A stretch of 64,000 bases of DNA, taken from contig JADNYV010000164.1 of assembly GCA_015501055.1 (NCBI GenBank), forward strand, positions 17,115 to 81,114, written 5' to 3'. The DNA comes from Mucidula mucida (taxonomy: Eukaryota; Basidiomycota; Agaricomycetes; Agaricales; Physalacriaceae). The translations under genes and the position numbers were made by a program. The notes below the pieces were generated by a model. The model saw only the letters and a program-made list of their open reading frames with translations, was not told the DNA's origin and searched no databases. This document shows positions 36,051 through 40,872 of this stretch, piece by piece (position 1 is the first letter of the stretch; each line of letters starts with the position of its first letter).

Positions 36051-37480
36051 CGGTATGGTGTTAGATGTTTTTCGTTCGAAGAAGCGTCTATGGCGTGCGT
36101 GTTCATATGACTGCAGATAATGTTTATGAATTTGTCTGGAACTGGACGAACGAAGATAGCACGACCGTGTCCGAGATCTCCGCATGATTGATAGGCAAAG
36201 AAAGTGGGCATTGGAAAGTCGAGAGATATATCGTGGAAAATAGCGGTATGTCGAGCTGTACGAAGACCAGTTCGCGTTCGTTTTGAAGACAGCCGCGGCA
36301 GATCATAGTGGTCGCAAACGAACGCGTCCATCACGTGCAGAACACGCACAAACAGTACGCGCCTGGACCTGCTTGGTTAATCAGGTCGCCGTTTCTTTGC
36401 GATACTCGAAAGACTAGAAAGTCATGATCACATCATAAGTCTTTGTGCGGTCGCCATTCCCAGCGTTGATGACGCCACAGGGTCAAAGGGACTGCTGAAT
36501 CAGAGCAAGCCGAGGAATCGGTGATACCTAAGAGTGCGAGTACGCGGTCTTTCGCACATAGTCACTGTCAATTGCACGCCCTGCACGAGACGGATATCAG
36601 GCGGAGATATCGCTGCATTTCTGTTATTATGACGCGTTGCACTCGTGTAGCACCGTCAACGGTCAGAATGAGACGGCAGACGTGGGTATCGTCAAGTACG
36701 TCTGGAAGACCATCGTTGAACTAAAGGTCACTCTCTACCATGGCCTAATTCGCGTTCTTCGTTTCGTTTTCGCACGCTCCGATTTCCATTTAACGATGAT
36801 ATATTTTTAGTCACTTCTACACAGGCACCTTCAGCTCTTGCGCATGCCATCGATAAATCTCTAAAATCGAGGCGCCCCGTCTATCTACCTTCCCAAGCTG
36901 GTTGTCCAAAATATTAAGAACAGCGGGGATATCGGCCTCCATGTTGTTGCCGTTTACTGCTGGTAGAAGGAGGTTCGCATACACCTGCCCAAGAATCGAG
37001 GCCTCCTCCCAGAACATGAGAGACGTGAAGGTCTTTGGCATCATCTCAAGAACGAGTGTATCCCTCCCTGCCCTGCGTAGGTACCGTGGGTTCAGTAAAC
37101 TGAGAGGCGGGCAGGCGAAGAAGACTCACCAACGATGATTGAAGAGCGCCCCGCCGTGAGGACCGATAATTGCACGAACGTTTTCGTGGAACCAATGAAT
37201 CAAGGCTTGCTGGGACTGGAATGTCTTCTCATGGAAAAGGACGAGTTCTTCGCCTTGTCCACGCTCCTCCAGCTTCGCTTCAATGGCGACAAGAAGCTCG
37301 TCTTCGTCGATGACACGTCGGCCACCGTTGGAGACGCCGCCGTGAGAGCGACTAGCGTAAACAATCTACACAAAGTATGTCAATCGGGCCTCCGGCGAGA
37401 GCAGTGTTCTCACTTTTTTACGCTGATCAAGTGGTATTGACTGCCCCAATCCAAACGTCTCGAGTGCGGCCCCGCAATTT

Positions 37481-37870
37481 GGCCGTGGCCGCTACCGTGC
37501 ATGCACGGTAGCGGCTCACGGCCGCACGGTAGCACAGCCACAGCCCAAGTTGCGCCACCTTCCACGTCCCCAGGAGCATCTATTTTCAAGCGGATGAGTT
37601 ATGCGTCGGCTATAAAATGTATCAATGAACACATCTTGGTAGCAAAACTTTGTGTGGTCAGACCAAAAATCACCAAGAATGAGCAAAGTTTTTCTGGTGG
37701 CCGCTACCGTGCGCACGGTAGACCCTGCACGGCCCACGGTTGCACGGTACTCACGGCAGCGGCCACGGTCGTCTGCACGGTAGCGGCCACGGTACTCTTA
37801 CGTCACGCACGGTAGCGGCAGTAATGCGAACACGGTAGCACGGTAGCACGGTACTCGCACGGTAGTGCTC
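37481..37870 (+). repeat. GC-rich palindromic repeat, left
   Basis: Many copies of CACGGTAGCGGCC and its reverse complement occur here, including the perfect palindrome CCGTGCATGCACGG at about 37,496. They form strong potential hairpins. An interruption of about 160 bases lies at 37,535-37,695. Confidence 0.8.
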
Positions 37871-38149
37871 ACGGGCGTGACAAGCGCGTGACAGCATGTT
37901 ACACCTGCGTTACCGTTTGACTTTTGGATCTTCCTAGAATTACTCGTTGATGGTCCTACATCAATGAATATATGTCCAGGGATATGTATACCGCTGTTTG
38001 ATACTCCGAATGTCACGAAGAAATCTCCGCTATTCCCTCCGGAGTTCTAATGTCCTTTTAATCGTTGGGAATGCTCCTGGCAGACTGGTTAGATCCAATC
38101 CGGACCCTCCGTATGCCTTAATCATTCCTGATACTACGGATTCCACTCA

Positions 38150-39060
38150 CATGTCGCCCCCCGCTTCCATTTGCCAACCCGCTGCCGGTGGCACCAATTG
38201 CACGTACTTACTGAAGGAATCAGAGCCTGACACATGTGTCCGATGATCCATGCTTTTTGGCCAGCTTCTTCGGCAGCTTGGAGTTTTTGGACTGCAAAGG
38301 CCATTATGCCATTGGGGTCAGGACTGGTAGTGACGTTGAGAACAGCGTAAATTGATACAGGCATGCAACAAGGTACTGCTGCTCGTCCGAGTCGTATATC
38401 CAGAGACTAAGGATGAGGCATCAACGGCCAGGACAAGGGAATACGAGGGAAAGCTGGCTTTAGATTGTACCAGTACACGGTATTCAGCGAAATTATACTT
38501 TATCGCAACTCAGTCAGACGATGACGAGAAGAGGAACTAAAGATATACCCTAAATTTGTTCCTGGTGCGACCACAGAGTAGCTTCCAGAGTGATACTTCA
38601 GCTGCTTGGCGGCCGTGGCGTTGATCCAAGGCGCCCACTCGGAACTCGCTGCCTCAAAAACATATTGTGCATCGTAACCCGTCGCATCAGCAGCTGGGGT
38701 GTCACTTGTTGAGAAGTTGTTTGCTGGAGCAGCCTCACTGGTAGTCAAATAAGTAGCCACAAATGAAACAATCACTGTCACTTACCGTAGTAACAAGTTG
38801 TCTCAAAGGACAAGAAATATAATAATCGGGAGACAAGGGATCACAAGCTACAGACTCAGTTTTGGCAACTAACACGTGAAAAGCATAACCAGGATATGAG
38901 ACACCCCGACCGGCGACAAGCGCTCTCCAGTCCGTGGTGTCCCGCCTCATATCGGCGAGCCATTGATGCCAACCATGCGCGACCCAGGCATAGCCTGCAC
39001 ATGGATCCGTCTGTATCCCGCTTGTATGTACTTCCGCACCTTGATTTCTGATCGCCCACC
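38150..39060 (-). pseudogene. Sphingomyelinase-like phosphoesterase fragment
   Basis: Minus-strand exon-like pieces are at about 38,780-38,950 (MRRDTTDWRALVAGRG), 38,545-38,735 (YDAQYVFEAASSEWAPWINA, then KYHSGSYSVVAPGTNL), about 38,480 (IISLNTVYWYNL) and 38,230-38,345 (TSPDPNGIMAFAVQKLQAA, then GQKAWIIGHM). They follow the order of secreted acid-sphingomyelinase-like calcineurin-type phosphoesterases between the metal-binding GNHD and the GHM motif. Introns of about 48-50 bases are still present, so the capture was from DNA and not from mRNA. The N-terminal metal-binding part and the final GHTH part are missing, and a one-base shift lies after GHM. A product would not be expected to be active. 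Confidence 0.7.
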
Positions 39061-39605
39061 CGGGGATCGCGCTTGCTCTTGCGCTCGCGACTTATGCTGC
39101 AGGCTGTGGAATATCAGGATCAGCATTGGCGTGGTGGAGTCTCACCCACAGCAGCAGGAGAGAGGGTACGTGAAGGCTCCCATGATCGGTGGAGCAGAGC
39201 AGGACCAAGTTGATGGAAAGGAGACCTTTCATCTCTGTCTGGTGCGTGTGAGGGCGGCGGCAGATAGAAACTTGGTCCTGCTGGAGCGCCGAGAGCATTT
39301 AACGAGTTCGTATTTTACGAGGGTGACCTTGCGGCAGTGCGTTACATCGCCGAGAACAGTAGAAGACGTGCTTGCAATGGTACGGGTGGAACCGAGGGGA
39401 CTTGCAATGGAAAATACCATATTAAAATTAGAGAAGAAAGCTATGCTGTATGCACCACAGGCTAGTAAAGAAGGAAACGAGATATATCCAAGGTGTTAAT
39501 AGACGTGTCGTGATAGATGCTGGCGAGTGAGAGTCAAGACGGGATCGCCCCATAACAGTGTTACGCCTTCAAGTCACAGTGTGACCACATCTTCGTAACG
39601 CTGCG

Positions 39606-39722
39606 TGCCACGGTAACAGGGTCCATCACGGCAGTGATGCACGGTAATGATGCACGGTAGCGGCCACGGTAACGGTAGCGGCCACGGTAGCGTGCACGGT
39701 AGCACGGTAGCGGCCACGGCAC
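39606..39722 (+). repeat. GC-rich palindromic repeat, right
   Basis: This array has the same CACGGTAGCGGCC words as at 37,481-37,870 and lies just inside the right end of the inserted element. Confidence 0.8.
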
Positions 39723-40872
39723 TTTTGTGGTGCCCTCTCGAGTGTCTTCAGAGATAGCCAGGGATGAACAAGCGGCGCCCGACAAGAGAAAATGACCATC
39801 TGAGCTCCAAGGTCGTGTTGATTGTGATGCATCCGCTCGGCCTCGTAGCCCAGCATCTTCCACATCTCCAATATGGGGCCGCTAGGCTTCCTACCCGTAA
39901 CAACATCGCCATGAGACCCTAGTAAAAGATGCGAACCTTGACCGACGATATGCCTGATTTGATTTGAATATCAGACGCAAGGAAATTGTTGCATACACAC
40001 GTGACACGGTCGAGGAAGTGCTGAAACGACCAAGAATCCGGGGAAGTCGCGATGAGCAGTGTGTCAATGGGATACGCCGTTTCGTACTCCTCGTGAGTGA
40101 GCTCTGTGCGGTTTGACAGAATCTCCAAGCCAGACGTGGATACACCGTCGCTCATGCATGCTAGGTCGTTCCAGGAATCGGCTGGAGGATCACCTCTATA
40201 CGTGGCATTGCCGATGATCTGATATCATAATGAATAGAAGCAGCCGGCAAGTTGGAAAGAGAAGGTACTACGTACGATATTCTGGCCCGTTTGGCCGCGA
40301 TAGCAGACGAAGTCTTCCTCTTCGCATAGTGCGGCGCGTTCGCGGATCCCGTCGACAAGGCGAACCCACTGTTTGGCGTCGCTAGCTCGCAAAGGCGAAA
40401 AGATGGGCATACGGAGGCGGAAGTCTGGGTAGAGCAGTTCCTCGCCATAAAGAGCTCCGTAGGTGCGTTGAGCGACGCAAGGTGCATAGTATTGAGGCGT
40501 AGTTGGATGGCATTCGGTGATCGCAGAAGGAGTCCATCGTGGTGACTCTGCCGCTTCGCGCGACGGGCTCATTACCCATATGAGATCCCGAAGAGCATCC
40601 ACCGATGTCGGTTGCGTTTCAAAGTACTGATAATGCAGGTCATGGATCCGCTGTCGTGTCGCCCGGTCGAGTCCAGCTCTGAGGGAAAGTGTAAACAGAA
40701 CGACGATGATGAAGGCAGAAATAAAGTAGATTGAGAGGCGCCGTCTGCCACTCCGCAATTGGAGATTGGACCGAATAGCAGCCTCTGAGGCTGATTCGCT
40801 GAAGTAGATAGATTTGTATGCGTGCACCGTTCGAATCCATGGCCAGGGAGTAGTGGACCGAGAAAGCATCAT

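Follow-up and report, generated by a model that had tools for sequence, protein, structure and literature searches.

Insertion in a GT61 glycosyltransferase gene

We analyzed a 64,000-nucleotide (nt) stretch of the Mucidula mucida genome (contig JADNYV010000164.1, positions 17,115 to 81,114; "the window" denotes this whole stretch), in which a GT61 glycosyltransferase gene is split by a 2269-bp DNA transposon. The element, for which we use the contig label C121, lies at window positions 37467-39735 and is bounded on both sides by perfect 9-bp direct repeats. The locus contains the following features.

36817-40872, reverse strand: split GT61 glycosyltransferase gene (PF04577 match, intron model, 77 homologues)
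40275-40219, 40000-39954, 37413-37366 and 37129-37073, reverse strand: modelled GT61 introns; the element interrupts exon 3
37458-37466, no strand: target-site duplication, left copy TCTCGAGTG (repeat comparison)
37467-39735, forward strand: whole element, 2269 bp, Pack-type transposon (ends recur elsewhere in the genome)
37467-37500, forward strand: left terminal inverted repeat, with an outer half CGGCCCCGCAATTTG that is unlike the right end and an inner part of 19 nt that is identical
37467-38145, forward strand: left terminal and subterminal region, common to sister copies; CACGGTA arrays at 37485-37874
38146-38232, forward strand: interior stretch, no match listed in the genome comparison
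38233-38766, reverse strand (gene sense): captured 534-bp acid sphingomyelinase-like piece, exon and intron sequence
38767-39270, forward strand: interior stretch outside the sphingomyelinase piece; parts resemble contigs C22/C206 and C302
39271-39735, forward strand: right subterminal and terminal region, common to sister copies; CACGGTA repeats
39702-39735, reverse strand: right terminal inverted repeat
39736-39744, no strand: target-site duplication, right copy TCTCGAGTG (repeat comparison)

A sequence-only reading of the window had described a flanking 9-base direct repeat, inverted ends with an identical inner half, GC-rich palindromic arrays and the lack of an internal transposase, and all four features were recovered. 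Identical 9-mers spaced 2278 bases apart occur as one pair only in the whole window, namely TCTCGAGTG at 37458-37466 and 39736-39744. The inverted ends (37468-37500 and 39702-39734) are 82% complementary across 33 nt; their inner 19 nt form an identical run and their outer parts differ. GC-rich arrays adjoin both ends, with 21 of the 26 CACGGTA motifs in the window falling inside the element. No transposase-like frame was seen by eye within the 2269 bp, and the three cargo frames scanned gave no Pfam match.

The host gene was recognized by a Pfam match to PF04577 (E = 2.4e-7) on its fourth-exon frame. When the flanks were joined with the element removed and one 9-bp repeat kept, a four-intron model yielded 522 codons plus a stop, the longest among 96 intron combinations above 480 codons. 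This reproduces the restored frame of 523 codons proposed earlier, but not its exactness: the model tied on a simple splice score with one of 501 codons, and the figure therefore depends on intron choice. Comparison with 77 GT61 homologues revealed that 76 alignments span the insertion site and that 73 cross it with gaps of no more than 8 residues; the best homologue was a Trametes protein (62% identity over 79% of the query). The interrupted arrangement was not found in distant relatives. A search of the assembly with 39745-40870 returned the window alone, giving no second haplotype of the locus, and the empty site is therefore visible only as protein in other species. The empty-site check suggested by the sequence-only reading thus succeeded at the protein level, where the homologues of other fungi are unbroken, and not at the level of a second haplotype. 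The GT61 allele carrying the element is expected to have lost its function.

We considered whether the repeats and inverted ends could be coincidental and the GT61 gene could have a long extra intron or be mis-modelled. The non-unique intron choice speaks for this, but the ends are fixed at 13 sites in the genome (see below), the 73 homologues are continuous across the site, and no other 9-mer pair in the window has that spacing. Recurrent ends, continuous homologues and the unique 9-mer pair refute this explanation, to which we give practically no weight.

A captured piece of an acid sphingomyelinase-like gene

Comparison of the interior with the rest of the genome revealed that 38233-38766 is 95.1% identical, over 534 bp and free of gaps, to a gene present on contigs C937 and C499; the stretches compared on these two contigs are 99.6% identical to each other. 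Two exons of this gene, joined manually, matched solved sphingomyelin phosphodiesterases (E = 9.4e-18), and its single frames had no Pfam match. Judged by these alignments, the donor of the piece is an acid sphingomyelinase-like gene, and the search for an intact phosphoesterase donor thus led to C937/C499. In the DNA, 228 bp separate two exon motifs, compared with approximately 18 residues in the best solved protein, whose first aligned part is weak. Intron sequence was therefore captured, and the copy was therefore made from DNA and not from a spliced transcript. The earlier description of intron-containing sphingomyelinase-like fragments holds for the introns and the gene type; the plural does not, as there is a single 534-bp piece.

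One 5' splice site of the piece is altered (GT to CT). Coding differences from the donor comprise 8 non-synonymous and 6 synonymous changes (pN 0.037, pS 0.096), which are too few for a claim of selection and lean towards constraint of either donor or piece over free decay. Elsewhere in the interior, 38945-39198 shows approximately 70% similarity to unclassified sequence on C22/C206, and 39149-39279, on the right side, approximately 69% similarity to C302. The remaining interior had no match outside the element family in the genome search.

A second loaded copy with unrelated flanks

The whole element, including its cargo, is also present on contig C960, with 16 differences in 2269 bp (99.3% identity). 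The C960 copy has its own 9-bp duplication, GATGTTACC, and its flanks show no similarity to those of C121 on either side. Of the 26 differences between C121 and the donor, 22 are shared by C960, and the capture is therefore older than the split between the two copies. Since all 2269 bp are present at both sites, whose flanks are unrelated and whose 9-bp duplications are separate, the element moved as a unit. On this comparison of flanks and duplications, the loaded element can be said to have transposed.

The same data bear on the possibility that the sphingomyelinase piece was never captured, and that a pre-existing gene duplicate merely ended up between element ends. Unassigned DNA lies between the piece and the family skeleton on both sides, as might be expected of such an origin; the occurrence of the complete unit, piece included, at two unrelated and separately duplicated sites speaks against it, and we consider it very improbable.

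The element family in the genome

Searches of the 59.9-Mb genome with the two ends gave 30 matches for the left and 24 for the right, some of which are arrays in inverse orientation. Sibling copies of the ends, the absence of which would have undermined the sequence-only reading, were present: 15 two-ended copies were identified at 13 sites, with the near-identical contigs C667 and C549 contributing a single site and two C736 copies lying in one inverted duplication. Copies in which just one of the ends was good (C190, C793, C287, C860) were excluded from this count. Target-site duplications were perfect and 9 bp long at 9 of the 13 sites and 8 bp long at C505; none was present at C660, C838 or C736. 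Copy length ranged from 70 bp (C667) to 7.6 kb (C660). Among sister copies the number and position of CACGGTA motifs vary, and the outer end halves are asymmetric.

The 70-bp copy (C667:15024-15093 and C549:110908-110977) consists of the two ends only, has a perfect 9-bp duplication and is predicted to form a hairpin; it may be the minimal unit of the family that can move. At C660:135269-142829, a copia-like element, identified as such by eye, is nested within a 2-kb family copy; its repeats are 346 bp long and 98.8% alike. The two copies at C736:1-9457 lie inside an inverted duplication of approximately 4.15 kb, 99.4% alike, which is either a real palindrome or an assembly fault.

The interiors of seven further copies (C71, C196, C180, C926, C505, C838, C190) were compared with the genome in a search for additional cargo. 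The C71 interior contains nested high-copy repeats and that of C926 a repeat present at ten other places, while those of C196 (530 bp) and C180 (410 bp) matched only themselves in the genome. Two sister pairs were apparent from their interiors, namely C838/C793 (97%) and C190/C926 (93%). The C838 interior also matched C71:105430 and C71:80564 (80%), and the C190 interior matched C72, C639, C604 and C293 (68-73%); none of these matches was assigned. Repeated capture by the family is neither shown nor contradicted by this search. A nested stretch of approximately 250 bp at C71:60386-61095 has inverted ends and recurs, at 98-100% identity, in 29 or more further places (of 290 candidates, 40 were scored), consistent with a young high-copy repeat resembling a miniature inverted-repeat transposable element (MITE). 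Outside the listed copies, C549:77791-78120 is 85% identical over 323 bp to a C505-type interior; this match was likewise not assigned, and the stretch is perhaps a donor or a remnant.

For ten joined insertion sites, the longest open frame was compared with 100 mononucleotide shuffles each. The longest frame exceeded all shuffles at C960, C156, C505, C223 and C667, where frames of 204-323 codons are open, and did not do so at C121, C196, C71, C180 and C926. This hints at a preference for insertion into coding exons, a lead based on shuffles at those five sites, which homology does not back, and on homology instead at C121.

A candidate autonomous partner

A 6.8-kb copy on C156 has the same ends and its own duplication, and contains a 759-codon open frame with a GCM zinc finger (Pfam, E = 4.6e-8). 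Downstream frames share 25-35% identity with peptidase-like and PHD relatives. In an alignment of 74 proteins, from which relatives P0004, P0005 and P0007-P0011 were omitted as shorter, the putative catalytic residues, D446, D538 and E674 in the numbering of the open frame, are conserved in 72/72 (D), 66/70 (D) and 59/61 (E) of the rows with a residue at that position. Two motifs between the second D and the E are similarly conserved (CxxH in 66/66, W in 57-58/58). No family of the KDZ-type transposases, which belong to KDZ elements of basidiomycetes, appeared among the Pfam matches of 13 proteins at E values up to 10, in a search whose HMMER filters drop weak matches.

The peptidase-like region has a conserved Cys (28/28), His (44/44) and Asp (37/42 rows present), and we take it to resemble ubiquitin peptidases; it had no Pfam peptidase match. 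PHD was above the Pfam cut-off in 2 of the 6 long relatives scanned, and the C156 frame itself gave no PHD match in Pfam at E 0.01. The predicted model of relative P0001 had a mean predicted local distance difference test score of 47. Further relatives of the C156 transposase lie in the same genome (C147:19732-21520, C110:6-428, C791, C773 and C938), with 35-49% identity and some with stops. From its zinc finger, DDE transposase and peptidase-like and PHD regions, C156 is a candidate for the autonomous partner that the sequence-only reading had proposed to look for, with matching ends and an open transposase frame.

Classification and proposed mechanism

The C121 element works like a Pack-type Mutator-like element (Pack-MULE), with no transposase of its own and a host-gene fragment between its ends. 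This was the interpretation made from the window, and it is supported by the sister copies, the donor gene, the candidate partner and the unbroken GT61 homologues. We conclude that C121 is probably a non-autonomous, gene-carrying cut-and-paste transposon of Mutator/foldback type, that is, a Pack-MULE in an agaricomycete fungus.

Membership in Mutator is likely but not proven. The target-site duplications, which measure 9 bp at 9 of the 13 sites and 8 bp at one other, fall within the 8-11 bp of MULEs (PMC6446971) and depart from the 8 bp of hAT elements. Terminal inverted repeats are present, although their 33 nt fall short of the hundreds of bp common in MULEs (PMC6446971). The zinc finger, DDE triad, CxxH and W were all found, the first as the GCM finger of C156 and the others in the 74-protein alignment; CxxH and W also occur in hAT (PMC5225508). 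The composite ends of Tm1-type foldback elements, with outer motifs and variable numbers of subterminal repeats, were likewise found.

Several observations weigh against the Pack-MULE interpretation, in addition to the tied GT61 intron models. The sphingomyelinase share of the interior is limited to 534 bp, with no host gene found for 38146-38232 or 38767-39270, and the genome yielded no host donor for the cargo of the seven further copies. No Pfam MULE model was among the matches of the C156-type transposase, and the name "MULE" is therefore based on the length of the target site, on the motifs and on a DDE-type fold in common. In the fold search, ISCth4 (presumably of the IS256 family), Hermes, integrases and the P element tied, with ISCth4 not singled out; the predicted fold is suggestive of a DDE enzyme and leaves the superfamily undecided. 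The same Pack-type behaviour could then come from a transposase of another or new DDE superfamily (hAT-like, P-like or unnamed). GCM/WRKY-type fingers are typical of MULEs, which counts against this, as do the 9-bp duplications at 9 of 13 sites, within the MULE range (PMC6446971), compared with 8 bp for the hAT elements reported in fungi (PMC3538342/PMC6710886). We regard a non-Mutator transposase as unlikely.

For a Mutator/foldback-type element, we propose that the C156-type transposase, acting in trans, would bind the subterminal arrays via its GCM zinc finger, that its DDE domain would cut at the element ends, and that insertion would occur with a 9-bp stagger. The host piece may have been acquired as repair or replication passed across an older element, by template switch or gap filling, after which the loaded element would have moved at least once to give C121 and C960.

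Comparison with known systems

The best-known cases of Pack-type capture by Mutator elements are those of plants. Plant Pack-MULEs (PMC6446971, PMC8647823) also lack a transposase, carry host-gene fragments between inverted ends, make 9-bp duplications and include DNA-level copies with introns. They differ in having long inverted repeats, where the fungal element has short, partly unmatched ends and subterminal arrays; by comparison, loaded copies of the fungal family number only two, and a single donor has been identified.

The closest architectural counterparts of the element are the Mutator/foldback elements Tm1 and Muta1. Tm1 of Meloidogyne (PMC3169594) shares asymmetric outer end motifs, variable numbers of short subterminal repeats, mostly 9-bp duplications, MITE-like short copies and a copy with a MULE-like transposase. 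It differs in its nematode host and 496-aa transposase, and the available text does not present its histone-hairpin motif elements as gene pieces that were captured with introns. The Aedes aegypti element Muta1 (PMC5225508) shares Type 2 foldback ends, subterminal tandem repeats, duplications of 8 or 9 bp and a DDE domain with CxxH and W; unlike C156, it has a 504-aa transposase, active in yeast, for which the available text mentions no peptidase-like or PHD region.

Animal Pack-TIRs, including Ssk-FB4, are terminal-inverted-repeat transposons with captured host DNA, for which gap filling and template switching before transposition have been modelled (PMC8277862); their hosts are animals, and their capture junctions are known, unlike those of the fungal element. 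Among fungal DNA transposons with a host gene, the transduplicating hAT elements of Pyrenophora and Pseudocercospora (PMC3538342, PMC6710886) reside in ascomycetes and make 8-bp duplications, and the histone H3 copy of Pseudocercospora is intronless whereas introns are kept in our element. Pleurotus ostreatus Helitrons (PMC4289320) are basidiomycete transposons with gene-like cargo, but use a rolling-circle mechanism and carry captured genes of stated unknown origin. Gene-family expansion adjoining MULEs has been reported in Rhizophagus. We found no description of a fungal Pack-MULE in one open-access library, where subscription papers are mostly missing.

It is conceivable, although we hold it rather doubtful, that these elements represent an unnamed agaricomycete-wide lineage of Mutator/foldback type that lands in exons and captures host genes with their introns, and whose transposase carries, as fused parts, a cysteine-peptidase-like region as well as a PHD finger. 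The extra domains, a putative deubiquitinase-like enzyme and a putative chromatin reader, might then aid the choice of open chromatin or escape from silencing.

Taken together, nearly every link of the chain is present in one fungal genome: the donor gene, two sites with the loaded element, the minimal copy of 70 bp, the candidate for an autonomous partner and the host exon that was split. This makes the pick-up of host DNA by transposons testable in a small eukaryotic genome. The C156-type transposase also suggests a possible identity for the widespread "hypothetical" GCM/PHD proteins of Agaricomycetes.
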